This document shows, in pieces, positions 1,695 through 32,810 of a stretch of 35,245 nucleotides of DNA. The notes beneath the pieces are model-generated. The model was not told where the DNA came from. It did no database searches and worked only from the letters and a program-made list of their open reading frames with translations. Each line of letters starts with the position of its first letter. Within the stretch, counting starts at the first letter, position 1. Origin of the DNA: Verrucomicrobiales bacterium (GTDB lineage: Bacteria > Verrucomicrobiota > Verrucomicrobiia > Limisphaerales > SXTU01); the NCBI GenBank assembly GCA_005791875.1, contig SXTU01000201.1:1-35245 (forward strand), in the 5' to 3' direction. The translations under genes were made by a program, and so were the position numbers.

Positions 1695-2978
1695 TCAACG
1701 CCGCGGCCTTGCCAGCATCAGCCCGTTCGCCACCCACGGCGAGAGCATCGCGCCGATGGCGAAGAGGCCGAGCATGGCATCAAACGCAGCGAGAGAATTG
1801 ACCTCGTCATCCGTGGCGAGCAGGCCGGTGACGAGCGAGGCCATGCCCAGCACGGCGAGCAGCATCGTGTAAATCCCCATCATGCGGCGCGGCCAGCCAG
1901 GCTGGCATTTGAACGTCGCCGTCAGCGGGATCAGCAGCGCGCCGAACACCAGCGCGCCGATGACATACGGCGACTCGAACCCCGTCGCGAAGCACATCCC
2001 CAGCGACGCCAGCGCCAGCGCCACACAAGCGCCGACCCAGTTCGCCGCGCGCGTCTGCTCCTCGGACAGCGCGAGCCGGCCAAACTTGTTCAGCCGCAGC
2101 AGCAGGTTGAAAATCGGTTCCGCCGTCCACGTGAGCAGCGCGAAGGAGAGGTAGATCATTTGAAGCGGAAACACCCACGGCTGGAGCGCGGGGTTGGACT
2201 TCGCCAGCGAGCCGAGCATCCTGTTGCCGAGCCAGCCGCCGAGGATGACGCCGAACTGCCAGTTGGGCGGCAGCTTCGCCATCCAGAGGAAGTAGCGCAG
2301 CATCACCGAGTAGATGAAGTGCCGCGCCTTGAGCGACTCGATGATGCCCTGCCGCGCCCAGTCGTTGCCCGGGTCGAGCCGCATCGCCTCGCGGAAATGC
2401 GCCAGCGCCTTCTGATGGTTGCGCTGCTCGAGCAACGTCCAGCCTTGGTTCGCGTGGGTGAAGGAGTTGTCCGGGTCGCGCGCGAGGGCGCTCTGAATCG
2501 TCGCGCCCGCCTCGGCCTTGCGGCCCAGCTTCACGAGCGCGACGGCGCGGAGGTTCGTGCTGGCGACGTGTTGGGAATCCACTTGCAAGCCGCGCTCGGC
2601 CGCCGCCAGCGCCTCGGCCCAGCGGTAGTTCGCGAGGTGAATCTGCGCCTCCAGCGCGTGGAAGTCCGCATCCTCCGGTTCGAGTCGGATGGCCTCGCGC
2701 ACCGCATCGAGCGCGTCATCGAAATCCCGGCGGTCGTGCAAGACGTGCGCCAGCGCGTAATGCGCGAAAGGCAAATCCGGCGCAAGCGCGATGGCCCGCT
2801 GCGCCTCGTCCTGCGCCTCGGCGAACTGCTCCTGATCCGCGAGACACACGGCCAGCAACGCGTGCGGAAGCGCGGCGTCGGAATCGGTGGCGAGAACCGT
2901 GCGCAGCTCGGGGATGGCCAACTCGTGCCGGCCCTGTTCGAGCAGCACGAGCGCGCGCTGGAGTTGGGTCGAGGTCAC
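1695..2978 (-). CDS. TPR-repeat integral membrane protein
   Basis: A 427-residue protein with two halves. Residues 1-215 are about six tetratricopeptide repeats with the usual spacing of small and aromatic residues (for example AHYALAHVLHDRRDFDDALDA, HANQGWTLLEQRNHQKALAHF), a protein-binding superhelix. From about 225 to 420 there are five to six hydrophobic segments (VILGGWLGNRMLG, VFPLQMIYLSFALLTW, NWVGACVALALASLGMCF, VIGALVFGALLIPLTA, MLLAVLGMASLVTGLLA, AMLGLFAIGAMLSPWV). No enzyme motif is seen. The start is GTG at 2978, inside the stop of the AAA+ gene (GTGA overlap), a layout typical of translational coupling. It is probably a membrane partner or anchor of that ATPase; this rests on context only. 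Confidence 0.88.
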   Translation of the reverse strand: MTSTQLQRALVLLEQGRHELAIPELRTVLATDSDAALPHALLAVCLADQEQFAEAQDEAQRAIALAPDLPFAHYALAHVLHDRRDFDDALDAVREAIRLEPEDADFHALEAQIHLANYRWAEALAAAERGLQVDSQHVASTNLRAVALVKLGRKAEAGATIQSALARDPDNSFTHANQGWTLLEQRNHQKALAHFREAMRLDPGNDWARQGIIESLKARHFIYSVMLRYFLWMAKLPPNWQFGVILGGWLGNRMLGSLAKSNPALQPWVFPLQMIYLSFALLTWTAEPIFNLLLRLNKFGRLALSEEQTRAANWVGACVALALASLGMCFATGFESPYVIGALVFGALLIPLTATFKCQPGWPRRMMGIYTMLLAVLGMASLVTGLLATDDEVNSLAAFDAMLGLFAIGAMLSPWVANGLMLARPRR

Positions 2979-4336
2979 ACCTTGAGATATTTCAACACCT
3001 CGTCATACGCGCCGCCTTGGTTCGCATAGAGGGCGTAGTTGCGCGCGGTGGCGAACCACTCGCGGGTCGTGGGCTTCAGCGCAGCGACGGCTTGCGCGAG
3101 GTCTTTCGTCCGCAGCGGCGTGGGCACGCCGGACTTCATCGCCTCGCTGAGTTTGTTCTCAATGGCAACGTCCACCACGGCCTTGAGATCTGCGCCAGAG
3201 AAACTTTCTGCCTTCTTCGCGAGCGAGTCGAAGTCCACGTCCTCCGCCGGTCTGCCCCGCAGTTGCAAGCGCAGCACGGCGGCGCGCGCGGCGGCATCCG
3301 GCGGCGGGACGAAGAGGATGCGGTCGAAGCGCCCGGGCCGGCGGAACGCGCTGTCGAGGTGCCACGGGGCGTTCGTCGCGCCGAGGATGAGGATGCCCTC
3401 GTTGCTCGACTTCACGCCGTCGAACTCGGCGAGGAATTGGTTGATGAGATGGCGGCCCGCGCTCTGCCGCATGTCCGCGCGGCTCGCGCCGAGTGCGTCC
3501 ACCTCATCGAAGAACAGCACGCACGGGCGATGCTGGCGGGCCTGCTCGAACAGCTCGTGCAGGTTGCGCTCGCTGTTGCCGATCCACATGTCGAGCACGT
3601 CGTTGATGCCAACGGCGATGAAGCCGGCCTTGATCTCGCCTGCCGTGGCGCGTGCGAGGTGCGTCTTGCCGCAGCCGGGCGGGCCATACATGAGGATGCC
3701 GCCGCCGATGGACTTGCCGTAAGCCTTGTAGAGGTCCGCGTGCGTGAGCGGGTGGATGATCTTGAGGCGGATCTCCTCCTTGAGTGCTTCCATGCCGCCG
3801 ACGTCGGCGAAGGTGATCTTGGGCCGCTCTACTTCAACTTTCGAAGACTCTGGCTCCGGCTCCCAGCCCGCGCGCTGCTTGCCGTCGAAGACCTCGCTCT
3901 CTGCCTCGTCGGCCTCGATGCCGAGGCGGCTGGCGAATTCCAGGTCAGCGGCGGAAGAATCCTTCTCCACGCCGCGCTTGTATTGGATGACGGCTTGCTC
4001 GATCTCGCCGACGCCCGCGAGCAACCGCGCGTGCAGCACGAACGCACGGGCCGGGGCGTTCGAGGACTTTGTGAGCGACTCGATGAGTGCGAGCGCGTGG
4101 CTGTTCTTGCCTTGTGCGTGGAAGGCGCGGGCGAGGCCGAGTTGGAGCGCGGCGTGGTCGGGAGATTGTGCGAGCGCCTCGCGGTATTCCTTCTCCGCCT
4201 CGGCGGCGCGTCCGGCGGAGAGCAGCGAATCGGCGAGGTGCTGGCGAAGGGGGACGTTGTTGGGCGTCAGGCGCAACGCTTCGCGGAGCGCGTCGAGGTT
4301 GTCGCCGCCGGGGCCGGAAGAAGCGTTGCCTGCCAT
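2975..4336 (-). CDS. TPR-AAA+ ATPase, classical AAA clade
   Basis: A 453-residue protein. Residues 12-130 are three to four TPR-like repeats (LRQHLADSLLSAGRAAEAEKEYREAL and onward). A charged linker leads to one AAA+ module, about 172-400: FADVGGMEALKEEI, Walker A GPPGCGKT (218-225), a WIGNSE pore-loop-like segment (251-256), Walker B VLFFDE (273-278), sensor 1 N322 in GATNAP, and paired arginines in FRRPGRFDR (331-339). That second region of homology places it with the Cdc48/Vps4/FtsH type rather than Clp or NtrC. No protease, zinc site or membrane segment is present. A C-terminal helix region (TTREWFATARNYA) ends it. It probably remodels protein complexes; the TPRs may choose the target. 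Its stop overlaps the start of the TPR membrane gene by four bases, and it lies 59 bases after the propeller gene. Confidence 0.93.
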   Translation of the reverse strand: MAGNASSGPGGDNLDALREALRLTPNNVPLRQHLADSLLSAGRAAEAEKEYREALAQSPDHAALQLGLARAFHAQGKNSHALALIESLTKSSNAPARAFVLHARLLAGVGEIEQAVIQYKRGVEKDSSAADLEFASRLGIEADEAESEVFDGKQRAGWEPEPESSKVEVERPKITFADVGGMEALKEEIRLKIIHPLTHADLYKAYGKSIGGGILMYGPPGCGKTHLARATAGEIKAGFIAVGINDVLDMWIGNSERNLHELFEQARQHRPCVLFFDEVDALGASRADMRQSAGRHLINQFLAEFDGVKSSNEGILILGATNAPWHLDSAFRRPGRFDRILFVPPPDAAARAAVLRLQLRGRPAEDVDFDSLAKKAESFSGADLKAVVDVAIENKLSEAMKSGVPTPLRTKDLAQAVAALKPTTREWFATARNYALYANQGGAYDEVLKYLKV

Positions 4337-6097: not shown

Positions 6098-6174
6098 GTA
6101 GGGCGCTTCTGTCCCCAACGCGCCGCAATTGGTCGACCCCCCCCCGACGGCGCGCTTCGACAGACGCGCCCTAC
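6098..6174. repeat. 77-bp palindromic element, family A (diverged copy)
   Basis: Starts GTAGGGCG and ends CGCCCTAC, with inverted arms of about 28 bases that match imperfectly and a run of nine C in the centre. Two much better conserved copies are at 17709-17785 and 32553-32630. Here it lies in the gap between the converging Sel1 lipoprotein and TolC-family genes, five bases from the TolC-family stop, where it could also end transcription. Confidence 0.85.
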
Positions 6175-7791: not shown

Positions 7792-8820
7792 TCACGCTGC
7801 CGCCCGTCGCAGCCGGTCGGCGATGCCCTGCCACTCCGGCAAGTCCGGCGGCGCTTCCACCACGACGCACACTGCGCCCTGTTCGTCGCAGTGGTGCAGC
7901 TCCGCGTAGAGCGCCCGCGCGTAAGCCGCCGCGTCGTGCGGGATCACCGACACCGAGCCGAAACCGCCGCCCAGCGGAATGTGCGTGTGCGCCAGCACCG
8001 AGGCGCTGCTCGGCGACACGCCGAGTTCCGCAAGCCGTGCCTTCAACTCCGCCTCATCGGGCCAAACCAGGATGAGCAGCCGCGCCTTGGGCGAATAATG
8101 CTTCGGCAACTGCCCCGGACTCCGCAGCGCGTCCGAGTCGGCGGATTCCGCATTCCGCATTCCGCATTGCGCATTTCCCAAGGCTGCCGCCACCGACTCC
8201 GCGTGGATCATCCCCGGGCGCAGCACGCGCGCCGGACTCGTGGTCAGGTCCACCACGGTGGACTCGATGCCCACGTTCGAGTGTCCACCATCCACGATGA
8301 GCCGCAGCCGGTCGCCGAGCTGCTTGCGGACGTGCTCGGAGTTCGTCGGCGATAGCTGGTTGGAAAGATTTGCGCTCGGAGCCGCCAGCGGGAAGCCGCA
8401 CGCGCGGATGACCTCGCGCATCAACGGGTGCTGTGGCCAGCGCACGCCCACCGTGTCACCACCTGCCGTGACGAGATCATGAATCGCCGCCGCGCGCGGC
8501 AGCACGATGGTCAACGGCCCCGGCCAGAATGCACCGGCCAGCCGCTCCGCCACCTCCGGCCACCCGCGCACGCACGCACGCGCCATGTCCAACCCGTCCA
8601 CGTGGACGATGATGGGATTGTGCGACGGACGGCCCTTCAGCGCGTAGATTTTCGCCACCGCCTGCGGGTCCAGCGCGTTGGCCGCCAGCCCATAAACCGT
8701 CTCCGTGGGCAGCGCGACCACCTCACCCGCGCGCAGCAACTCCGCCGCGCGCAGCACCGCCGCCGCGAAGAGCGCGGGCGTGTGCGTGGACAGAGTTTCG
8801 GCTGGAGGCGGGGTGCTCAT
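7792..8820 (-). CDS. Threonylcarbamoyl-AMP synthase, Sua5 type
   Basis: A 342-residue enzyme that makes threonylcarbamoyl-AMP from threonine, bicarbonate and ATP for the t6A37 modification of ANN-reading tRNAs. Residues about 15-215 are the YrdC domain: EVVALPTETVYGLAANAL, IYALKGRPSHNPIIVHV, FWPGPLTIVLPR, TVGVRWPQHP, APSANLSNQLSPT, STVVDLT and RVLRPGMI. The C-terminal Sua5 domain (about 240-342) starts SPGQLPKHYSPKARL. The ATG at 8820 fits the family start; the open frame upstream of it is antisense to another gene. The linker between the two domains carries a heptamer array (8143-8177) read as the peptide QCGMRNAES without loss of frame, at a place where length is known to vary. Confidence 0.95.
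   Translation of the reverse strand: MSTPPPAETLSTHTPALFAAAVLRAAELLRAGEVVALPTETVYGLAANALDPQAVAKIYALKGRPSHNPIIVHVDGLDMARACVRGWPEVAERLAGAFWPGPLTIVLPRAAAIHDLVTAGGDTVGVRWPQHPLMREVIRACGFPLAAPSANLSNQLSPTNSEHVRKQLGDRLRLIVDGGHSNVGIESTVVDLTTSPARVLRPGMIHAESVAAALGNAQCGMRNAESADSDALRSPGQLPKHYSPKARLLILVWPDEAELKARLAELGVSPSSASVLAHTHIPLGGGFGSVSVIPHDAAAYARALYAELHHCDEQGAVCVVVEAPPDLPEWQGIADRLRRAAA
8143..8177. repeat. Five-unit GCATTCC heptamer array inside sua5
   Basis: Five consecutive seven-base units of consensus GCATTCC, 35 bases in all. Arrays of the same unit and the same length of five are found in the alcohol dehydrogenase gene (23116-23150) and in rsmH (29639-29673), all in the same orientation relative to coding. 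Because seven is not a multiple of three, the unit gives one seven-residue cycle in every frame, and neither strand contains a stop. Confidence 0.9.
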
Positions 8821-10638: not shown

Positions 10639-13434
10639 TCAGTGGTTGAACACAAACTCCGCGGAGTTCAGCAGCGCCCAGAGGATGTCCTCGGTGGCGG
10701 ACTGGCGGGTGGCGTTCTTCGCGGTGAAGGCTTTCAAGGCGAGGGCGAGTTCCTCGGACGTCGGCTTGCGGTTGTAGGCACTGAGGTAGAGGTCGGTCAC
10801 GATTTGCTCCTCGGTTGACTTGCTGGCGGCGAGGAGACGCGCGCGGCCGTCGGTGGCGGTGACCTTCGTGTTCAGGCGCGTGGAGTTCATCAAGTGCAAC
10901 GCCTGCACCATGCTGGGCCGGGCGTCGCGGTCGCAGGGGCATTCGGCGCTGCTGTTCGGGCGGCCGAAGGCGTCCATGAACTCGCTGTCCAGCTTGTGGT
11001 TCCACGTCTGGAGCGCGCGCGAGCCTTCGGGCAGGCCGGAGAAGTTGTCGCGCGTGCCGGTCACTTGCGTCACCGCGTCGAGCAGGACTTCTGCGGGCAG
11101 GCGGCGGCGGTAGCTGCGGGAGAAATTCTTCGTGTCGCCCACGTTCGTTTCGTTGGCGGCGGAACTGAGCTGATAGGTGTGCGAGCGCAGGATGGTCCGC
11201 ATCAGGTGCTTCAGGTCGAACTTGTGCACGATGAAGTCCCTCGCCAGCCAGTCGAGGAGCGGCTGGTTGCTCGGCGGGTTTGACGCTCGGAAGTCATCCA
11301 CCGGGTCCACGATGCCGCGACCGAAGAAGTTGTTCCAAACTCGGTTCACAGCGGCACGCGCGAAGAGCGGATTTTCCGGCTGCACCATCCAGTCCACGAG
11401 CGCGGCGCGCGGGTCGGAGCCGGTCGCGATGGTTACTTCGGGGCCGTCGGGTGCGCGCGGCTTCAAGTCTTCGCCGGTGACAGGATGTTTCATTGCGACG
11501 GTGCTGGTGGCCCAGATGTATTCCGGTTCACCGCTAATGGGGGCGGAGATGCCCTGGCCCTTGCGTCGCGTGCCACTGAAGAACGCGGCGAGCTGGTAGT
11601 AATCCTTCTGGTCCCACTTCTCGTTCGGATGATGGTGGCACTTGGCGCACTCCAGCCGCACGCCGAGGAAGACCTGGCTCACGAAACCGCTCGCGTCCTC
11701 GGGCGTGCGCTTGTCGCGGAAGAGCGCGGGCGGGCCGACGTGGTGCGTGCTGCCTTGCGCGGTGAGCAGTTCGCGGACGAACTGGTCGTAAGGCTTGTTC
11801 TGCCGGAATGAATCGCGCAGCCACTGGTCCATGAGGAAGACCGGCTTCACGCCGACGCGCGACGGGTTGCCGCGCACGAGGTCGCCCCACTTCACCGCCC
11901 AGTGGTCGGCCCACGCGGGATGGTCGAGCAGACGGTCAATCAGCTTCGCGCGCTTGTCCGGCGATTTGTCTTCGAGGAACGCCATCGTCTCCTCCGATGT
12001 GGGCAAAGTGCCGGTGGTGTCGAGCGACGCGCGGCGCAGGAACTCCGCGTCCGTGCAGCCCGCTGACGGCAGGTGCCCGAGCTTTTGCAGCCGCTCATAA
12101 ACGAGGCGGTCAATGTCGTTGCTCACCGGCAGCGCGGCGAACTGTTCCGCCGGCAACACGCGATCGCTGGGCACCATCACCGTGCTGACCGCAACGCTGC
12201 CGAGGAAGCGCGCGACGATGGCCCCTTCGCCGCTGAACTTGCCCACGCTCACCACGCCCTCGTCGTCCACGGTGGCGAGGGTTTTTTCGTTCGAGAGGAA
12301 TTCGGACAGCTCGGTCACGTCGCGCACGGAGCCGTCCGTGTAGCGCGCCTGCACGAGCAGCGGCTGCCGCGTCTCGCGACGGTAGCGGCGCTCCTTCGGG
12401 AAGACCGCGATGCCCGTGAGCGTCGGCTCGCCGGGGCGCGAGTAAGTCATGCCTTGGGCAATCCAACTCGCCACCGTCCGGAATTCCTCCGAGTCGCGCT
12501 CGATGCGCAGGCCGCCGTCGTGCGGCACGGCGAGCGAGGCTTTCTTCAGCAGCAAACTCTCCTCGGGCAACGCCGGGAACACGCGGCGACCGCGCGCGTC
12601 TTTCACAATCTCCAAGTAGTCCGCGCGCGGGTCGTAGGCGAAGATGGTGAGCTTGAAACCGTTTTGTCCGTCGGCCTTTGCGTGGCAGGAGCCAAGGTTG
12701 CAGCCGGCCTTGCTGAGGATGGGGAGAACGTCATTGAGGAAGCTGAGTTGCGGGCCAGTGCCGGCGGCTTCCAGCCGCCGCTCCGGGGCGTTGGTCGCGC
12801 TGTTCGCATCGGGGGTCGCAGACGGCGACTGCGAGTCGCCGGCGCGGCGCACCGTCACCTTCGCGCTCGCAGATTTGCCGGAGAGCTTCGCAGTGATGGT
12901 CGCGGTGCCCGGCGCGAGCGGGCGCACCTTGCCATCCGCGCTCACGCTGGCGACGGCGGGATTGTCCGACACGAACTTCGCCGGTGCAGTCACCTCGAAG
13001 CCGTCCTTGTCCGTGGCTGTCACGACGACGCGATGCGCCGCCGCCCCCGCGATGAGCGGCAGCTCCGTGGGAAACACCGCGATGGCCGTGACGCCTTTCA
13101 GCGCGACTGGTGTGCCCGACTTGGAAGCCGACTTCTGTGGCGGTGTGCAAGCCGCCAGCAACCCCAGCACCAACGCACACCACCACGAGGCGCGAGTCCC
13201 CTCGCCCCCACCGGGGGAGAGGGTTAGGGTGAGGGGGCGGGCGGAAGAGCAGAAGGACGCGGCGGATTGTTTGGGGCCAGAAGCGGTGACGTTGAACTCA
13301 GACGCGCTCTGACTTGCTGGACGCCCTGCCCCCTCACCCCGGCCCTCTCCCCCGATGGGGGCGAGGGAGAAGAGGCGGTTGGCCTTCGTCCGCGTTCTTT
13401 GCGTCTTCTGCGCCTCTTTGTGGCTAAAGCTCAT
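10639..13434 (-). CDS. DUF1549-DUF1553 lipoprotein with Big_2 domain and c-type heme-like motifs
   Basis: A 931-residue protein of a PVC family of unknown function. The start is ATG at 13434: it overlaps the stop of the cytochrome-WD40 gene (ATGA) and is preceded by GGAGG at four bases. A lipoprotein signal peptide comes only at about residues 82-96 (SWWCALVLGLLAAC, lipobox LAAC), after some 80 residues encoded by repeats. Then a Big_2 Ig-like domain (about 113-196), a repeat-encoded linker (about 197-228), a cytochrome-like region with CNLGSCH (245-251), DUF1549 (SLDTTGTLPTSEETMAFL, HWAVKWGDLVRGN), a CAKCH heme-type motif in ECAKCHHHPNEKWDQKDYY, and DUF1553 (FARAAVNRVWNNFFGRGIVDP onward to LNSAEFVFNH). 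Probably cell-surface and redox-linked with its operon partner; the reaction is unknown. Confidence 0.92.
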   Translation of the reverse strand: MSFSHKEAQKTQRTRTKANRLFSLAPIGGEGRGEGAGRPASQSASEFNVTASGPKQSAASFCSSARPLTLTLSPGGGEGTRASWWCALVLGLLAACTPPQKSASKSGTPVALKGVTAIAVFPTELPLIAGAAAHRVVVTATDKDGFEVTAPAKFVSDNPAVASVSADGKVRPLAPGTATITAKLSGKSASAKVTVRRAGDSQSPSATPDANSATNAPERRLEAAGTGPQLSFLNDVLPILSKAGCNLGSCHAKADGQNGFKLTIFAYDPRADYLEIVKDARGRRVFPALPEESLLLKKASLAVPHDGGLRIERDSEEFRTVASWIAQGMTYSRPGEPTLTGIAVFPKERRYRRETRQPLLVQARYTDGSVRDVTELSEFLSNEKTLATVDDEGVVSVGKFSGEGAIVARFLGSVAVSTVMVPSDRVLPAEQFAALPVSNDIDRLVYERLQKLGHLPSAGCTDAEFLRRASLDTTGTLPTSEETMAFLEDKSPDKRAKLIDRLLDHPAWADHWAVKWGDLVRGNPSRVGVKPVFLMDQWLRDSFRQNKPYDQFVRELLTAQGSTHHVGPPALFRDKRTPEDASGFVSQVFLGVRLECAKCHHHPNEKWDQKDYYQLAAFFSGTRRKGQGISAPISGEPEYIWATSTVAMKHPVTGEDLKPRAPDGPEVTIATGSDPRAALVDWMVQPENPLFARAAVNRVWNNFFGRGIVDPVDDFRASNPPSNQPLLDWLARDFIVHKFDLKHLMRTILRSHTYQLSSAANETNVGDTKNFSRSYRRRLPAEVLLDAVTQVTGTRDNFSGLPEGSRALQTWNHKLDSEFMDAFGRPNSSAECPCDRDARPSMVQALHLMNSTRLNTKVTATDGRARLLAASKSTEEQIVTDLYLSAYNRKPTSEELALALKAFTAKNATRQSATEDILWALLNSAEFVFNH
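12760..12843. repeat. Palindromic element, family B, inside the DUF1549 gene
   Basis: Inverted arms 12760-12780 and 12823-12843 match at 17 of 21 positions; each arm is also a small hairpin on its own (GGCGACT-GCG-AGTCGCC in the right arm). A close relative is in the MFS gene at 19039-19109, sharing GACGGCGACTGC and AGTC-CCGGC. Here it encodes the linker between the Big_2 and heme-like parts (AGDSQSPSATPDANSATNAP and flanks) in frame. Confidence 0.75.
13198..13369. repeat. Long inverted repeat, family C (CCCTCACCC type), at the 5' end of the DUF1549 gene
   Basis: Arms of about 41 bases (13198-13238 and 13328-13369) are near-identical inverted copies carrying GGGGGAGAGGG and GGGTGAGGGG, separated by about 90 bases. 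The motif resembles the widespread bacterial CCCTCACCCCAACCCTC repeat. It is read in frame as two copies of a peptide like LTLSPGGGEG and SLAPIGGEG near the protein's N terminus. Confidence 0.85.
13391..13430. repeat. Nonamer repeat, family H, directly after the DUF1549 start codon
   Basis: Nine-base steps of the CTTTGCGTC / CTCTTTGTG type. On the coding strand they give SHKEAQKTQRTRTK immediately after the start codon. The same kind of nonamer forms the large hairpin at 28911-29016. Nine is a multiple of three, so the coding frame repeats every three residues. Confidence 0.65.
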
Positions 13435-14765: not shown

Positions 14766-14814
14766 GCGGAAGAAGTGACGCGAGAGGGGAGGGTGAATTC
14801 ACCGGCGGCAAGAA

Positions 14815-15116
14815 GCGCGGACGCCCACGTCCGCAGCTTGTTAACGGAATTCTTGAAGGCACTCGATGAAATGCCAACCCGACGCCACGACGCGCGCCTT
14901 CTCCCTTCCTCGGAGGAGGGGAGAAGGTCGCCGCAGGCCGGATCAGGGGTGGGGCGACTTGCGCCGATGCGTGTAACCCTCACCCCAACCCTCTCCCCTC
15001 ATCCGATGAAGGGAGAGGAAGAAGAGGCGCTTCGCGGTTACGAAGCCACTCGCCAAGTGTCTTTCGGCCTTGGAAATAGCCCAAACCAACTGGGCTGCGG
15101 ACGTGGGCGTCCGCGC
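14815..15116. mobile_element. MITE-like nested inverted repeat, gene-free gap
   Basis: The 354 bases between the cytochrome-WD40 gene and larB hold no gene. They are framed by perfect 23-base inverted arms (14815-14837 and 15094-15116), extendable to about 28 with one mismatch. Each arm is itself palindromic (GCGGACG-CCCA-CGTCCGC). Inside is a family C inverted repeat (14897-15024). Terminal inverted repeats, small size and no coding capacity resemble a miniature inverted-repeat element; no clear target duplication is visible, so mobility is inference. The right arm ends three bases from the larB stop. Confidence 0.65.
14897..15024. repeat. Family C inverted repeat inside the nested element
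   Basis: The left part (CTTCTCCCTTCCTCGG then AGGAGGGGAGAAGG) and the right part (CCCTCACCCCAACCCTCTCC then GATGAAGGGAGAGG) are imperfect inverted copies related to the element at 13198-13369. Confidence 0.7.
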
Positions 15117-15119
15117 TCC

Positions 15120-15875
15120 TTATGCAGCAGCTAGCGCGTTGATCTGGCTCGCCGCGTAGCCGGCACCGAAGCCGTTGTCTATGTTCACCACCGTCACGCC
15201 ACTGCCGCAGCTCGTGAGCATCCCGAGCAGCGCCGCCACGCCACCGAAGGCCGCGCCGTAGCCGATGCTTGTGGGCACGGCGATGACGGGCTTGGAGACG
15301 AGTCCGGCGACCACGCTGGGCAGCGCGCCTTCCATTCCGGCGCAGACCACGAGCACGTTCGCGCGTTGGAGGGTTTCCATTTTGGCCAGCAGCCGGTGCA
15401 GCCCGGCCACGCCCACGTCGCTGATGCGCTCGACGCGGTTGCCCATGATGTCCGCCGTCACGGCCGCCTCATCTGCCACGGGCAAATCGCTGGTGCCCGC
15501 GCAGAGCACGGCGATGAGGCCGGGGCGCTTGGGCAAGGGCTTCTTCTCGATGGTCACGGCGCGCGCGGCCTCGTGCCAGACGGCGTGCTTGAACTTGCGC
15601 TTGAGCAGCCGCGCGGCCTCGGGTGTAAGGCGCGTGACGAGGACGTTTTGCTCGCGCTCGACGAGCTGGCCCGCGATGGCGGCAATCTGCGGCGGCGTCT
15701 TGCCCGCGCCGAAGATGACTTCGGGAAAGCCCTTGCGCAGCGCGCGGTGCGTGTCCACCTGCGCGAAGCCGAGGTCCGCGACGGGCGCGGCCTGGAAGGC
15801 GCGGAGCACGTCGTCGCGCGAGGCGCGTCCGGCACGGAAGGAGTCGAGGAGGGCGGCGGCTTGTTCGGCGGTCAC
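15120..15875 (-). CDS. larB: Pyridinium-3,5-biscarboxylic acid mononucleotide synthase LarB
   Basis: A 251-residue protein of the PurE-like LarB family, which carboxylates nicotinic acid adenine dinucleotide as the first step toward the nickel-pincer cofactor of lactate racemase. Family features in order: DLGFAQVDTHRALRKGFPEVIFGAGKTP cut here as DLGFAQVDTHRALRKG and FPEVIFGAGKTP, then VLCAGTSDLPVADEAAVTA, DVGVAGLHRLL, VLVVCAGMEGALPSVVAGLV, PVIAVPTSIGYGAAFGG, and the C-terminal MLTSCGSGVTVVNIDNGFGAGYAA. Length is normal. Start is GTG at 15875. No larC, larE or larA lies in this window, so its partners must be elsewhere, or it serves another purpose. Confidence 0.94.
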   Translation of the reverse strand: MTAEQAAALLDSFRAGRASRDDVLRAFQAAPVADLGFAQVDTHRALRKGFPEVIFGAGKTPPQIAAIAGQLVEREQNVLVTRLTPEAARLLKRKFKHAVWHEAARAVTIEKKPLPKRPGLIAVLCAGTSDLPVADEAAVTADIMGNRVERISDVGVAGLHRLLAKMETLQRANVLVVCAGMEGALPSVVAGLVSKPVIAVPTSIGYGAAFGGVAALLGMLTSCGSGVTVVNIDNGFGAGYAASQINALAAA

Positions 15876-17315: not shown

Positions 17316-18470
17316 GTGACGACTCCGTCTCCCTTTGCCGCCTATTCGCGCCGTCTGCTCGCGTTCATCGAACGCGGCGGAGCTGATGACGCGCCCCAGT
17401 TCTCCTCGCTCGCCCGGGAGTTGTTCGCGCTTCAGTTCGCCCATGTCGCGCCCTTTCGCCAGCTCTGCGAAGCGCGTCGCGTCGCGCCGGACGCACTGCC
17501 CGACTGGCGGCAAATCCCCGCCGTGCCGACGGCTGCCTTCAAGGAGCTGGAAGTCACGAGCCTCGCGCCCGCCGAGCGCACCGCCGTCTTCCACTCCAGC
17601 GGCACGACGGAGCACCGCCCCAGCCGGCACTTCCACAACGCTGAGTCCCTCGCGGTCTATGAAGCCTCGCTGCTCCCTTGGTTTGCGCGGCATCTCTTGC
17701 CCGCAGAGGTAGGGCGCGTCTGTCCCCAGCGCGCCGCCGGACCATCCGAACAACCAACCGGCGCGCTGGGACAGACGCGCCCTACCTTCCTCTGCCTGGT
17801 GCCGCCGCCTGCGCGGACTCCGCACTCATCCCTCGTCCACATGTTCGCCACCGTGAGCCGCGCGTTCGGTGCGTCCGGATCGCGCTTCGTGGCGACGGCC
17901 GGCGCGGACAACTCCTGGCAGCTCGACTTCACCGCCGCCCTCACCGCGCTCCGTCACGCCGGGCAATCCGCGCAGCCGGTCATCCTCCTCGGCACCGCGT
18001 TCATGTTCGTGAACCTCCTCGATGCATTGGAGCAACGCGGCTTGTCCCTCAGGCTGCCGCCCGGTTCGCGCGTCATGGAAACCGGCGGCTACAAAGGCCG
18101 CTCGCGCGAGTTGCCCAAGGCCGAGTTGCACGCGCTCATCACGTCCCGCCTCGGCATCCCACACGCCTCCATCGTCTGCGAATACGGCATGAGCGAGCTG
18201 AGTTCGCAGGCCTATTCACTAATCACTAATCACGCCTCACTTCCCTTCCGTTTCCCCCCATGGTGCCGCGCACTTGTCATCTCACCTGAATCTGGCCGCG
18301 AAGTCGCCGACGGCGAAACCGGCTTGCTCAGAATCTTCGACCTCGCGAACGTCCGCTCCGTGATGGCGATTCAAACCGAGGACCTCGCGGTGCGCCGTGG
18401 CGATGGCTTCGAGCTGCTGGGTCGCGCCACGCAAGCCGAGGCGCGCGGCTGTTCGCTCATGGCCGTCTGA
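17316..18470 (+). CDS. LuxE-like acyl-protein synthetase
   Basis: A 384-residue adenylate-forming enzyme. In bioluminescent bacteria LuxE activates a fatty acid with ATP and hands it to LuxC. Family features: VPTAAFKELEVTSLAP (70-85), the nucleotide loop VFHSSGTTEHRPSRH (91-105), PHSSLVHMFATVSRAFG (169-185), FVATAGADNSWQLDF, PVILLGTAFMFVNLLD, VMETGGYKGRSRELPK and VCEYGMSELSSQAYS, then a C-terminal lobe with LLRIFDLANVRSVMAIQTEDL. GTG at 17316 is chosen because the family N terminus begins there. Two different repeats lie inside the frame: a family A palindrome encoding residues about 132-157 and TCACTAA heptamers at about 301-310. One base separates its stop from the MFS start; a LuxC-like gene is three genes on. 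Confidence 0.88.
   Translation: MTTPSPFAAYSRRLLAFIERGGADDAPQFSSLARELFALQFAHVAPFRQLCEARRVAPDALPDWRQIPAVPTAAFKELEVTSLAPAERTAVFHSSGTTEHRPSRHFHNAESLAVYEASLLPWFARHLLPAEVGRVCPQRAAGPSEQPTGALGQTRPTFLCLVPPPARTPHSSLVHMFATVSRAFGASGSRFVATAGADNSWQLDFTAALTALRHAGQSAQPVILLGTAFMFVNLLDALEQRGLSLRLPPGSRVMETGGYKGRSRELPKAELHALITSRLGIPHASIVCEYGMSELSSQAYSLITNHASLPFRFPPWCRALVISPESGREVADGETGLLRIFDLANVRSVMAIQTEDLAVRRGDGFELLGRATQAEARGCSLMAV
17709..17785. repeat. 77-bp palindromic element, family A, inside the LuxE-like gene
   Basis: Arms 17709-17735 and 17760-17785 are inverted copies identical except for one extra C, starting GTAGGGCGCGTCTGTCCC. The element adds VGRVCPQRAAG...TGALGQTRPT to the protein between LLPAE and FLCLVPPP, two segments that are adjacent in a normal LuxE-type protein. 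No stop or frame change results. Confidence 0.92.
18216..18243. repeat. TCACTAA heptamer array inside the LuxE-like gene
   Basis: Four seven-base units: two of TCACTAA, then TCACGCC and TCACTTC. It encodes SLITNHASLP in frame, between the SELSSQAY motif and the next conserved strand. A third intact TCACTAA would have put a TAA stop in this frame. The same ending (TCACGCC then TCACTTCC) occurs in the intergenic repeat at 24179-24239. Confidence 0.75.
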
Positions 18471-22301: not shown

Positions 22302-23354
22302 CTACCGGCGCACGTCCACGAGGGTCTTCACCACCCGGTTCCCCGCCGTCATGCGGGCGAACAGCGCGGGCAGCTCGCTGAGGGCGCATTCCCCATCCAC
22401 GAAGTCAGCGGCGCGGATGACACCTGACTCAATGAAGTCCAGTGCGCGGCGGATGGTGCGCGGCGTGTGGTGGAAGCTGGCCCGCAGCGTGAGGTTCGAA
22501 TAGTGGATCAGCCCCGTGTCCAGCGAGACGCTCGTGCCCGCCGGACAGCCGCCGAAGAAGTTCACCGAGCCGCCCTTGCGCACGAGCTTCACCGCCGCCT
22601 CCCACGCCTCCGGATTGCCGACCGCCTCGATGACAACGTCAAACTGAGGCGTGGTAGGACCGCCCTGCCGGGCGGCCTTCACGATGTCCCCTTCAGTCCC
22701 GACGTCAATCACCGCGCTGGATCCGAGCCGAATCGCCGCCGCCAACCGCGCCTCACCGCGCCCGGCCACCGTGACTTCACAGCCCAGATTCTTCGCCAAC
22801 GCCACAAACATCAGCCCAATCGGCCCCGCGCCGATGACCAGCACTCGCTGTCCTGCCGCAAGCTCTGACTCCTCGACGCCCTGCACCACGCACGCGAGTG
22901 GCTCGGTGAGCGCAGCGTCACGAAAAGCGGTGCCGGGCTTGAGCCGCAACAGGTTCTTCTCCACCAGCCGCGCCGGGACAACGATGGACTCGGCGTAAGC
23001 GCCGTTGAGGAAGAGCAAGTCGTCGCAGAGGCTTTGTTGGTCACGTTCGCAGGAATCGCAGACATCGCACGGCGCTGAGTTCGCGACAACGACGCGGTCA
23101 CCGACGCGCCAGCCCTCATTCCGCGTTCCGCCTTCCGCGCTCCGCGTTTCGACGATCTCGCCCGCCAGCTCGTGCCCGAACACTGCGGGAGGCACGATCA
23201 TCTTCGCGTGGTAGCCGCGCTTGAAGACCTTGAGGTCCGTGCCGCACGTCAGCGCCGCGCCGATGCGGATGCGCACCTCGCCGGGCGCGAGCGGGCGCTC
23301 GGTGACCTCTTCGAGGCGGACATCTTGTTTTCCGTGGAGGACTGCGGCTTGCAT
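22302..23354 (-). CDS. Zinc-dependent alcohol/sorbitol dehydrogenase family protein
   Basis: A 350-residue medium-chain dehydrogenase. Catalytic zinc ligands: Cys37 (ALTCGTDLKVF) and the His61-Glu62 pair (FGHELAGEIVE). Structural zinc cysteines: Cys96, 99, 102, 110. The nucleotide fold has VLVIGAGPIGLMFVALAKNLG. It is closest in pattern to threonine or sorbitol dehydrogenase-like enzymes; the substrate is not readable. The ATG at 23354 (MQAAVLHGKQDVRLEEV) is the family start; five more codons upstream are open. Two repeat-derived peptides lie in frame: a GCATTCC heptamer array (23116-23150, RSAEGGTRNEG) in the loop before GDRVVV, and a small palindrome (22657-22677, AARQGGPTT) in the nucleotide domain. 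Confidence 0.92.
   Translation of the reverse strand: MQAAVLHGKQDVRLEEVTERPLAPGEVRIRIGAALTCGTDLKVFKRGYHAKMIVPPAVFGHELAGEIVETRSAEGGTRNEGWRVGDRVVVANSAPCDVCDSCERDQQSLCDDLLFLNGAYAESIVVPARLVEKNLLRLKPGTAFRDAALTEPLACVVQGVEESELAAGQRVLVIGAGPIGLMFVALAKNLGCEVTVAGRGEARLAAAIRLGSSAVIDVGTEGDIVKAARQGGPTTPQFDVVIEAVGNPEAWEAAVKLVRKGGSVNFFGGCPAGTSVSLDTGLIHYSNLTLRASFHHTPRTIRRALDFIESGVIRAADFVDGECALSELPALFARMTAGNRVVKTLVDVRR
22657..22677. repeat. Small palindrome inside the alcohol dehydrogenase gene
   Basis: CCGCCC-TGCC-GGGCGG is a perfect six-base stem flanked by GGA and CC, preceded by GTGGTA. It encodes AARQGGPTT between two conserved parts of the nucleotide domain. Confidence 0.45.
23116..23150. repeat. Five-unit GCATTCC-type heptamer array inside the alcohol dehydrogenase gene
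   Basis: Units TCATTCC, GCGTTCC, GCCTTCC, GCGCTCC and GCGTTTC, five in 35 bases, more diverged than in sua5 and rsmH. It is read on the minus strand as RSAEGGTRNEG. Confidence 0.85.
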
Positions 23355-29030: not shown

Positions 29031-30116
29031 CTATGGCCCAGCCCGCCGCGCCCAGCGCAACTTCGCCGAGGACGAGCGCGGGTTGTCCCGACGCTCTTCA
29101 ACCGTGGGCCGGATGACTTCCTCGGCGATGGCTGCGTAAACCCCATCACGCAGCCCAGCGGCGAAGGCGTGCTTCACGCGCCGGTCTTCACCCGAGTGGA
29201 ACGTGAGCACCGCCACGCGTCCGCCGGGGTTCAGGCACGCGGGCAGATGCCGCAGGAGCGTGTCCAGCGCGGAGAACTCGTCGTTCACTGCGATGCGCAA
29301 CGCTTGGAACACGCGCCGCACCGTGAGGTCCGCCTCGCCCTTGTGCATCGTCGGCAGCGCGGCACGGATGGCGGCGACGAGTTCGCGCGTCGTGGCGAAA
29401 GTGTGTCCAGCCAGCGCGACGGCAAGTTCAGTCGCGCGCGGCTCGTCAGCATTTGCGCGAAGCAGATTTGCCAGAGCGTCCGGTGAAGTCTTCGCGAGCA
29501 GCGCAGCCGCAGGCTGGCCGCGCTGCGGGTTCATCCGCATGTCCAACGGCCCGTCGCCTTTCGTGGAGAAACCGCGAGCCGGGTCGTCGAGCTGCATCGA
29601 AGAGATGCCGAGGTCCGCGAGGATGCAGTCCGCGCCCTTCATTCCGCGTTCCGCATTCCGCATTCCGCATTCCCCGAGCGCCTGCGGCAGTCCGGCGAAG
29701 TTGCTGCGAATCGCAGTGAACCCCTCCGGGCTGAAGCCCGCCTCACGCAAGCGCGCCTCGGTCTTCGGCAACTCCAGCGGGTCCGCATCCAAGCCGAGCA
29801 GGTGGCCGCCGGGCTGGAGTCGGGCGAGCAACTCGCACGCGTGGCCGCCGTAGCCGAGCGTGCAATCCGCCACCATCTCACCGGGCTTGGGCGCTAGCAC
29901 CTCGAGAATCTCCGCGACCATGATGGGCCGGTGCGTGCCCGCCGGAGTCTTCCCCGACGCGATCACCTTCGCGACCGTCTCGGCGTAGCGCTGCGGGTCG
30001 CGCTCCTTGTATTTCTCCTCGAATGCGCGCGGGTTCTTGCCCGAGTAGCGCGGGCGGCGGCGGTGCGGAGTCGCGGGCGTCGAGCTGTCGGAGGATGGCA
30101 AAGATGAGTCGGTCAC
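29031..30116 (-). CDS. rsmH: 16S rRNA (cytosine1402-N4)-methyltransferase
   Basis: RsmH (MraW) methylates N4 of C1402 in the decoding centre of 16S rRNA using S-adenosylmethionine. Motifs: THRPIMVAEILEVL, SAM loop DCTLGYGGHACELL, GLDADPLEL, ILADLGISSMQLDDPARGFS, the family GPLDMRMNP, ALRIAVNDEFSAL and VLTFHSGEDRRVKHAF. A basic N-terminal extension (RRRPRYSGKNPRAFEEKYKE) precedes the domain. GTG at 30116 is preferred; TTG at 30155 gives 13 more residues. A GCATTCC heptamer array (29639-29673) is read in frame as GECGMRNAERGMKGAD just before the ILADLG strand. No mraZ, ftsL or ftsI follows, so it is outside the usual dcw cluster; the gene before it is an unrelated exported protein. Confidence 0.95.
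   Translation of the reverse strand: MTDSSLPSSDSSTPATPHRRRPRYSGKNPRAFEEKYKERDPQRYAETVAKVIASGKTPAGTHRPIMVAEILEVLAPKPGEMVADCTLGYGGHACELLARLQPGGHLLGLDADPLELPKTEARLREAGFSPEGFTAIRSNFAGLPQALGECGMRNAERGMKGADCILADLGISSMQLDDPARGFSTKGDGPLDMRMNPQRGQPAAALLAKTSPDALANLLRANADEPRATELAVALAGHTFATTRELVAAIRAALPTMHKGEADLTVRRVFQALRIAVNDEFSALDTLLRHLPACLNPGGRVAVLTFHSGEDRRVKHAFAAGLRDGVYAAIAEEVIRPTVEERRDNPRSSSAKLRWARRAGP
29639..29673. repeat. Five-unit GCATTCC heptamer array inside rsmH
   Basis: Units TCATTCC, GCGTTCC and three perfect GCATTCC, five in 35 bases. Same array length and orientation relative to coding as in sua5 and the alcohol dehydrogenase gene. It is placed in a surface segment between the substrate-side helix and the next core strand. 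Confidence 0.9.
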
Positions 30117-30182: not shown

Positions 30183-32522
30183 CTACCGGGGAATCTCGTT
30201 CAACGTGTAGTGCAGCGTGTCATGCCGCAGCGCGTCGCCGCGGTGGCCCTTCAAGCCCAACGCGCGGAGCATGATGACGTGGCGGGGTTTCAGGCCTTCG
30301 AGCGTCAGGCGCACGGTGAGCTTGTCGGCGGCGACCTCGGCCTTCAGCACACGCAAGGGTGGGCCGGGGATTTTCTCGTCGCGGTCCTTCTCGGGCGCGT
30401 TGTGCTTGCCGTCGTAGGCGTAGGTGTATTGCGTCGCGTCCCAGTTCTCGGCGTCGCCGGCGAGCTTCGCGTCCACGGGCTGCGTGAACGCCAGCTCGAA
30501 GCCGTTCGTGCGCGCGGCCATAGTCTTGAACTCGAACGGCACGCGGCCGGTGAACTTCACGCGGTCCAGCGAGTGCGGCTGCGGTGCGATGCTCGTCCAG
30601 TGCCCGAAGCGCAGTCCGCCCACGTAGAGCCGCGAGTCCGGCCCGTAGGCGAGGCGGTTCACGCCGGACGCGAAGCCCTTCACGAACGGCAGCACCGCGC
30701 CCTGCCACTGGCCGTTCACCTTCTCCAGCGCCACGCGCACGACGCTCGCGTTCTGAAATTCGCCCACGAGCATCTGCCCGCCAAACGGCCCGAATCGGAA
30801 GTCACCGACGGTCGCGAGGCCGCTCGCGGAGCGCACCCACGCGTAGGGAAACCACACGGCGGGCGGCGTGAAGGCCGGGTCGCCGTCGAAGTGCGCGGGC
30901 GGCGACGGCGACGAACTGGGGTGGCCGTAGAAGTTCGTGAGCTGAAGATGGTTCAACTTGTTCGCCGCAATCCAGTGGCCCTGGTTGTCGGTCATGAAGA
31001 GGTCGCCACGAAATTCGCCGAAGCCATTGGGCACGCGCAGGCCGGACGCGAACGGGTCCGTGCGCCACACGTCCGTGAAGGGAATCGCGCCGGTGTTCGC
31101 CGGGTGCGGGGTAATCTTCAGGCACCAGCCCATCGCGGGGATTTCGCGCATCGCGCGGTGGCCGGTGATGAGCACGCCGAGGAGCCCGCTCTCGTCCACG
31201 AGCGGGCCGGTGGCGAAGGAATGGTAGTTGCCGGTGTAGCCCCACGCGTCGCTCACGCACTCGAAGACATCCGCCACGCCGTCGCCGTCCGCGTCGCGCA
31301 GACGCGTCAGCTCGCACTTCTGCATCACGTAGATGAAGCCATCCACCACGCGCAGACCGCCCGGCTCGTTGAGGCCGCGCGCGAACCGCCGCCACTTCGC
31401 GGCCTTCGCGTCGCCGGTCGCGCCCTCGACGATGAAGACCTCGCCCTGAAACGTCGCGATGGCGAGATTTCCGTCCGGCAGGAAGTCCATGCCGGCAACG
31501 GTCAACTTGATGTCCTTCGGCACGGGGAAATGCTCGACGGTGTAAAACTCATCGCCGCCGGGCTTGTCGGTGAAGTTCGTGTCGGGGAGAAAGACGGGCG
31601 CGGCAGTGAGTGCGTGTGGCGGACCGGAGACTGGCTTGAGTAGCCCGGCGAGTTGCTTCGCGAGCGCGGAGGCGGCATTCAAGTCCGCGACCACGGCGGA
31701 GGCGATTTCAAATGTCTGCGATTGCTCGCTCGGCGGAATCGCGACGCGCAACGTGACCTTGCGCCCGGCCACGACGTTAGTGACGAGCGCGGACCAAGGC
31801 CCCTTGCCATCGCGCTCGGCGTTGAGGATTTCCGTGACCGGCGTGCTGGTGACGAGCGGGAGAAAATTGCCGCCCGGCAGCCCGCGAAGCACCGCGACGA
31901 GCACGCCTGCCGGCGTGCGGATACCCTGCGCGCCAGCCACGCCGAAGATGTTCACCGGGTCGCCGGGTTCGTCGTGCGCGTTGAGCCGGACGCGGCGGGT
32001 GAGCGGGCCGAGTTCAAAGCGCCGGATGATGACATTCTGCCCGCCGACTTGCTCCAGTCTCGGCGACTCGATGACGGGAACATGCGAGTCGCCGGGCGGG
32101 TAAAGCTCATACACGAAGGAGTGCGCGCCGGCGACGGTGCTGTGGCCCTTAAAGCGCGTGAGCGGCCCGGTGGCGTCCGCTGCGACGGCGTCGAAGGTCC
32201 ACGGGTTGCGGGCGAGGCTGCCCCAGAGCCGCGTGCCGGTGAAGTCGCACACGAAGCGCGTGGACGTGCCGTTGTAAGGCGGGCCGTAGAGGTTGAGCGA
32301 GTCGCCCTGCCAGACCGTGTGCGTGCGGAGGAGCTGGGCGTCGAAGGCGAGGTGAAGGTTCGTCGCCAGCGGCACCACGATGCTGCGGCCCGACTGTGCC
32401 ATCGGCGCGCGCCGGAACGGGAGGTCGGCGGGATCGTGAACGGCGGGGACGGGAGCGGGCTTTGTGGGAGGTGCGGGAGCTTGTGCCATTGCCGCAAGCC
32501 CGAGCACGATCAAGCTACCCAT
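30183..32522 (-). CDS. Large exported beta-propeller protein (glucose/sorbosone dehydrogenase-like fold)
   Basis: A 779-residue exported protein of a type common in PVC bacteria, with no assigned reaction. ATG at 32522 gives MGSLIVLGLAAMAQA as signal peptide. The first half is a beta-rich domain (FDAQLLRTHTVWQGDSLNL, FVCDFTGTRLWGSLARNPW). A propeller follows from about 400: VAGMDFLPDGNLAIATFQGE, GLNEPGGLRVVDGFIYVMQK, LTRLRDADGDGVADVFECV (calcium-binding-like DxDxDG), NGFGEFRGDLFMTDNQGHW, FGGQMLVGEFQNASV and GVNRLAYGPDSRLYVGG, then a C-terminal beta domain. No CxxCH is seen. The frame stays open to a GTG at 32693 through a family A palindrome, so a longer N terminus is possible but less likely. 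Confidence 0.85.
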   Translation of the reverse strand: MGSLIVLGLAAMAQAPAPPTKPAPVPAVHDPADLPFRRAPMAQSGRSIVVPLATNLHLAFDAQLLRTHTVWQGDSLNLYGPPYNGTSTRFVCDFTGTRLWGSLARNPWTFDAVAADATGPLTRFKGHSTVAGAHSFVYELYPPGDSHVPVIESPRLEQVGGQNVIIRRFELGPLTRRVRLNAHDEPGDPVNIFGVAGAQGIRTPAGVLVAVLRGLPGGNFLPLVTSTPVTEILNAERDGKGPWSALVTNVVAGRKVTLRVAIPPSEQSQTFEIASAVVADLNAASALAKQLAGLLKPVSGPPHALTAAPVFLPDTNFTDKPGGDEFYTVEHFPVPKDIKLTVAGMDFLPDGNLAIATFQGEVFIVEGATGDAKAAKWRRFARGLNEPGGLRVVDGFIYVMQKCELTRLRDADGDGVADVFECVSDAWGYTGNYHSFATGPLVDESGLLGVLITGHRAMREIPAMGWCLKITPHPANTGAIPFTDVWRTDPFASGLRVPNGFGEFRGDLFMTDNQGHWIAANKLNHLQLTNFYGHPSSSPSPPAHFDGDPAFTPPAVWFPYAWVRSASGLATVGDFRFGPFGGQMLVGEFQNASVVRVALEKVNGQWQGAVLPFVKGFASGVNRLAYGPDSRLYVGGLRFGHWTSIAPQPHSLDRVKFTGRVPFEFKTMAARTNGFELAFTQPVDAKLAGDAENWDATQYTYAYDGKHNAPEKDRDEKIPGPPLRVLKAEVAADKLTVRLTLEGLKPRHVIMLRALGLKGHRGDALRHDTLHYTLNEIPR

Positions 32523-32552
32523 GCACGCGAACGCCCGGAGGCCGACGGTGAG

Positions 32553-32630
32553 GTAGGGCGCGTCTGTCCTCAGCGCGCCGCTTGGGCATCCGCACGATTC
32601 AGCGGCGCGCTGGGGACAGACGCGCCCTAC
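32553..32630. repeat. 78-bp palindromic element, family A, before the large propeller gene
   Basis: Arms of 29 bases (32553-32581 and 32602-32630) differ at one position; the loop is 20 bases. It lies 31 bases upstream of the likely start of the minus-strand propeller gene, in the shared upstream region with the broken plus-strand gene. On the minus strand it is still open in frame with that gene (VGRVCPQRAAESCG and on), which parallels the copy inside luxE-like. Confidence 0.92.
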
Positions 32631-32810
32631 CAGATGCGGCTTATCGGAGCCACCAAGGTGAAGCACGCTGACGATGTTCAATGGGAGCTGCACGAAGGCA
32701 GCGTATCGCAGCCCGTCCCGGCGGCGAGCGGGAAGTGTGCGACTTGGACTGCACCGGCTCGCACGGACGCTCGCCCCACCACGGTGGGTTTGCTACACAT
32801 TCGCCCCGTC

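Follow-up and report, generated by a model that had tools for sequence, protein, structure and literature searches.

The LuxE-like gene and its palindrome

The window analysed here, a stretch of 35,245 nucleotides from a Verrucomicrobiales bacterium (contig SXTU01000201.1, forward strand), carries on its plus strand a gene of the acyl-protein synthetase family with a GTG start and an adenylate-forming fold (positions 17316-18470). Its product scores 58.5 bits against the Pfam LuxE family (PF04443; cut-off 24.9) and matches the LuxE chain of PDB 7xc6 by sequence, while the fold of its structural model is that of PaaK-type adenylating ligases (Foldseek, E 1e-12). Judged from PF04443 and this predicted fold, the gene product is a LuxE/acyl-protein synthetase-like enzyme. 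Within the gene lies a 77-bp near-perfect palindrome (17709-17785, no strand assigned), whose outermost arms form perfect 20-nt repeats (17707-17726 and 17768-17787) that are followed by a one-base indel and then by more pairing. Folded as RNA, the 77-nt strand reaches -61.5 kcal/mol compared to -27.4 +/- 3.1 kcal/mol for shuffled sequences (z = -11). The reading frame remains open through the palindrome, which adds 26 residues (VGRVCPQRAAGPSEQPTGALGQTRPT) to the enzyme, and an earlier note on this DNA, made from its letters alone, was thus right in describing a near-perfect palindrome in frame.

The intact frame makes it probable that the element is translated, giving the enzyme a disordered loop insert of 26 residues. 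The AlphaFold model (mean pLDDT 89) is of low confidence at just two places, the C-terminus and the residues coded by the element; the latter make up a loop that runs from helix 108-126 to strand 156-159 and are probably disordered. The source genome is a metagenome assembly of 314 contigs (~91% complete), and palindromes can mislead assemblers, which raises the question of whether the insert is an assembly artefact or the gene inactive. Either seems very improbable to us: all conserved LuxE blocks are present, the frame is intact on both sides of the insert, the predicted fold is confident, similar inserts occur in genomes that were assembled independently, and pairwise dN/dS values within the enzyme family of 0.16-0.27 (0.21 compared to the nearest relative) indicate that the enzyme is under purifying selection.

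Copies, anatomy and mobilisation of the element

The palindrome is one copy of a dispersed element, as the earlier note had proposed from three copies in the window. Its 18-base end has six matches in the window at up to three mismatches (0.09 expected) and, in the genome search that the note had called for, 46 matches in the 4.7-Mb genome at up to two mismatches, compared to none for the reversed control. Genome copies were counted by pattern and covariance searches, the latter with a model built from 19 copies, which recovered 28 full-length copies in the source genome and had matches in 10 of the 11 genus genomes. The second copy in the window (6098-6174, no strand assigned) is probably intergenic and in no convincing conserved frame, and the third (32553-32630, likewise) is located in the 5' part of a minus-strand open reading frame (30183-32693), ahead of a probable signal peptide; for these reasons, both are probably untranslated. 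Only two of 22 copies examined are clearly within conserved genes, N-terminal cases being uncertain, and the element is thus predominantly extragenic. The copy in the LuxE-like gene is the top-scoring match to the family model in the genome, and no intact copy occupies this site in the sampled relatives, which together suggest a recent insertion. A clean empty site for this insertion was not found among the relatives in the genus, all of which have some loop sequence, and empty target sites could not be recognised in intergenic DNA either, where even the nearest relatives (~75% protein identity) have diverged too far.

Each half of the element consists of GTAG followed by a hairpin with a one-base bulge, GGCGCG[T]CTG-TCCC-CAGCGCGCC, and the two halves are inverted about a variable spacer of ~20-25 nt, so that they pair into one longer hairpin. 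Alone, the left half (17709-17735, plus strand) folds at -15.8 kcal/mol and the right half (17760-17785, minus strand), whose loop is one base shorter, at -15.0 kcal/mol; most halves in other copies self-fold at -13 to -20 kcal/mol, degenerate ones more weakly. The ends of 17 of 19 aligned copies are GTAG...CTAC or differ from it by one base, with G preceding GTAG in 21/21 copies and C following CTAC in 19/21. Three copies (L017, L030 and L117) are heterodimers, in which one half carries GGCGCGGTG-TCCT-CACCGCGCC. Both sides of the stem in this variant half have changed together, although this weakens its pairing with the other half, which identifies the half as the conserved unit. Such a conserved half is by definition a REP, and the doublet is REPIN-like.

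GTAG REPs, which combine a terminal GTAG with a short and often bulged hairpin (stems of 6-9 bp) and occur in many dispersed genome copies, have been described in several phyla, and the verrucomicrobium Opitutus terrae is the species with the most intragenic ones (PMC3733652). The dimers in O. terrae share with our element the GTAG end, the short hairpin units and the inverted arrangement (spacers of 20-100 bp); some of them lie in frame in conserved genes, where they code for 20-30 residues, and several REP families coexist in one genome (PMC3733652). The element described here differs from them in its new sequence, its one-base bulge and its occurrence in another order of Verrucomicrobiota. 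Like REPINs (PMC3116915), it is an inverted doublet that forms one long hairpin, with copies far above chance, but REPINs are predominantly extragenic, whereas the LuxE copy is intragenic, the family comprises only 28 full copies and no cognate RAYT was found for it (see below). From the published anatomy and the intragenic GTAG REPs of O. terrae we conclude that the element belongs to a kind already known. The earlier note had correctly recognized a dispersed family tolerated within a protein, whereas the independence of this family as a kind is not supported, as translated GTAG REPs are already published (PMC3733652).

The note had drawn its parallel with the palindromic elements (RPEs) of Rickettsia, and the likeness in effect stands: RPEs and their Wolbachia counterparts (WPEs) are also in-frame insertions at solvent-exposed parts of proteins (PMC3767692), and the LuxE insert is in frame, probably translated and in an exposed position. 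The element type is a different matter, since each half has GTAG ends and a REP hairpin, while RPE sequences of R. conorii are reported to end in CGTC (PMC3733652). The palindrome ends in GTAG...CTAC and has neither the CGTC end motif nor an RPE sequence, and we consider a Rickettsia-type element unrelated to REPs a most improbable identity. Nor did we find support for the proposal that the sequence has been kept open for translation. In nearly all copies the TAG of GTAG closes two of the six frames, and among the remaining four, 62 of 76 cases are open. At 72% G+C, however, the element would have few stops in any event, and conserved genes contain only a minority of its copies; we therefore rejected stop-free frames as a sign of selection.

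The element most likely moved through single-stranded DNA by a putative Y1/HUH transposase (RAYT) acting in trans. The source genome has two Y1_Tnp genes, at least one Y1_Tnp match is present in 8 of the 11 genus genomes, and several of these genes have inverted GTAG hairpins on their flanks. In the source genome, inverted GTAGCGGGGACACTCCTGTCCCCG hairpins flank the Y1 transposase gene L112 (G000:C79:2237-2467), and this arrangement is, by its sequence, a REP-transposase unit of another REP family; GTAGCTCGACATTCCAATGTCGAG hairpins surround the Y1_Tnp gene of L171 in the same manner. A scan of the flanks of 16 Y1_Tnp matches in the genus and the ~91% complete genome revealed no RAYT flanked by the GTAGGGCGCG hairpin, and the cognate transposase is therefore a putative one, to which the anatomy of the element points; RAYT loci can be absent in REP-bearing species (PMC3733652). 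Two loci, L160 and L167, were considered as cognate RAYTs, but their element halves are ~1 kb away, and the Y1_Tnp match of L167 shares its 599-aa frame with a proline-racemase-like protein; neither was accepted as an association.

Repeat inserts in the enzyme loop and in other proteins

The earlier note had taken the segments on either side of the palindrome to adjoin in normal family members. This is not the case: every ortholog has a variable loop at this site (17685-17801, plus strand, between helix 108-126 and strand 156-159), and with 12-104 residues (median 19, sd 14.6) it is the most length-variable interval among 81 orthologs. The second most variable loop (residues 300-308 of the window protein, sd 10.3) contains a tandem micro-repeat, CACTAATCACTAATCACG (LITNH; 18217-18234, plus strand). 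Nine of 15 strong inverted repeats in the ortholog genes (counting L105) fall in the first loop, which makes up 6.7% of the DNA.

In the comparison of orthologs suggested in the note, other members have short loops or unrelated sequences at the site, among them repeats of other families. The GTAGGGCGCG insert is found in the window gene and, degraded, in L039; GTAGGGCGAGACTC in L036; GGAGCGCAGGTGTCC in L031; TGCCGGCGACT..AGTCGCCGGCA, as monomer or dimer, in L032, L034, L038 and, degraded, L035, with dimers in L033 and L197; GGAGCGCGGACA in L052 and L062; and CCCTCACCCC..CCTCTCCCCC in L104, L105 and L108. Inverted or tandem micro-repeats occupy the loop of L050 and L064 and, as seen by eye, also of L053, L054, L059 and L096. 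Several of these inserts are themselves dispersed: those of L036 and L031 recur over almost their full length at a minimum of several dozen further sites in the respective genomes, the TGCCGGCGACT palindrome has 1-75 copies in each of the 11 genus genomes (reversed control, 0), and the GGAGCGCGGACA end occurs 6-9 times per strand in the genomes of L062 and L052. Outside this loop, an insert in a different loop of L043 matches at least a dozen-plus places in its own genome. By sequence comparison, then, the repeat families that different species carry in this loop number at least five; they are unrelated and dispersed, and four of them are found within this genus, where nearly all 11 genomes have repeat-derived sequence in the loop.

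In an enzyme tree built without the loop, L052 is the sister of L078 and not of L062, and L104 and L108 stand apart; with carriers in separate clades, several independent insertions are required. The L039 insertion, of the same family as that in the window gene, is 12 bp shorter on the left, and the tree does not join the two genes as sisters, although its support in this region is weak. Six of the records (L032, L033, L035, L072, L077 and L085) are titled Akkermansia muciniphila or Klebsiella pneumoniae; their orthologs group with Limisphaerales in the tree, and the titles look mis-assigned.

Other proteins have received the same element in frame, making the LuxE case one of several in the genus. 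A DUF1365 gene of the source genome (L002:1001-2128, G000:C135; Pfam 247 bits) contains, in frame and stacked within a single loop, the element together with a repeat of the CTCGCCCC type; in two relatives this loop is occupied by another GTAG palindrome (GTAGCAGCCGACGTGAGGAGGCTC), six relatives have a palindrome-free loop of 15-24 residues, and repeats are nested within repeats in the DUF1365 spacers. The element also lies in frame in a class-V aminotransferase of one relative (NifS-like, cysteine-desulfurase-like; L152:1137-2387) and in a UvrD-type helicase of another (L154:3-1835).

Tolerance, targeting or function

Taken together, these observations probably describe a non-autonomous GTAG-REP doublet that inserted in frame into a working LuxE-like enzyme, at a surface loop recolonised through passive tolerance, and we hold this reading with good confidence. 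To persist, an intragenic copy would have to add a net number of bases divisible by three, leave the frame free of stops and lie where the protein accepts the length; the same loop would then be recolonised by unrelated repeat families in different species, because survival is limited to such length-tolerant, in-frame positions.

The loop might instead be an active hotspot, in which a resident palindrome forms a single-stranded hairpin target and unrelated REP families replace one another. The repeats in the loops of nearly all 11 genus genomes, from four families, and the repeats inside repeats of the DUF1365 spacers would fit such targeting. The DNA around the gene has 19 strong palindromes in 80.5 kb (0.24 per kb), and three shuffled versions of the window have none. 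By that density, ten 60-bp loops should contain 0.14; the four observed (P = 1.5e-5) also speak for a hotspot. If palindromes survive in only ~10% of the DNA, as we assumed, the expectation rises to 1.4 (P ~0.06; the genomes are related and the figures rough), so that tolerance alone nearly suffices. Moreover, the insertion points are a few codons apart, and further loops of the LuxE-like gene have also been hit. The loop carries about as many palindromes as intergenic DNA would, or perhaps slightly more. Our best reading of the inserts, and the simplest, is passive tolerance; we regard active targeting as rather unlikely.

Selection of the insert for a function, either in the mRNA as a regulatory hairpin or in the protein as a useful segment, appears improbable. 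The hairpin would be very stable in mRNA, and an action of REPs at the RNA level has been suggested (PMC3733652), but orthologs have unrelated sequences or short loops at the site, the element-coded segment is modelled with low confidence and probably disordered, and inserts are also found in unrelated proteins.

Reuse of one site has been noted before: recB of two Xanthomonas species has different REPs at about the same position (PMC3733652), and the genome paper on Rickettsia japonica describes a region of the biotin ligase gene where RPE-related elements and Wolbachia elements both occur, favouring a common origin and leaving hotspots as a possibility (PMC3767692). In the text of PMC3733652, different REPs at the same site are given only for the Xanthomonas recB, whereas the loop described here has, across an order, no fewer than five families; compared to RPEs and WPEs, the element has another sequence and end motif, and the families at the one site are plainly unrelated. 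The reuse of one enzyme loop by so many unrelated dispersed families goes beyond the texts of both papers. It addresses the question, raised for Rickettsia and Wolbachia (PMC3767692), of one ancient insertion versus repeated insertion in permissive sites, and since unrelated families occupy one place and several are dispersed in their own genomes, it supports repeated insertion. The inserts are a natural record of enzyme loops accepting 20-80 extra residues, with selfish DNA as a source of new protein sequence; were the hotspot reading true, mobile DNA would be writing a rapidly evolving segment of this protein throughout a bacterial order.

Repeat-derived peptides such as VGRVCPQ...GALGQTRPT, DCKSPAR and SPSPRPSPPGEGE will be a source of error in homology searches and gene calling for these genomes. 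Two adjacent frames of a relative (L167), one proline-racemase-like (109-1905) and one D-amino-acid-oxidase-like (1909-3237), contain the peptides GALGTARPT, SSRREEAPTS and QVGHLRS, which suggests that repeat-derived peptides in proteins are general across the genus. The window itself contains further repeats. The CCCTCACCCC..CCTCTCCCCC family, which other proteins contain in translated form as SPSPRPSPPGEGE, is represented at 13199-13367 by a 43-nt inverted repeat with 88% complementarity. The stretch 14810-15121 has two inverted arms of 28 nt (96%) with 256 bp between them; each arm is palindromic in itself (GCGGACG...CGTCCGC), and the pair possibly delimits a larger non-autonomous element. 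Tandem ATTCCGC micro-repeats are found at 8145-8182, 23118-23155 and 29627-29678, and the same motif fills the spacer of the DUF1365 insert in a relative (L179).
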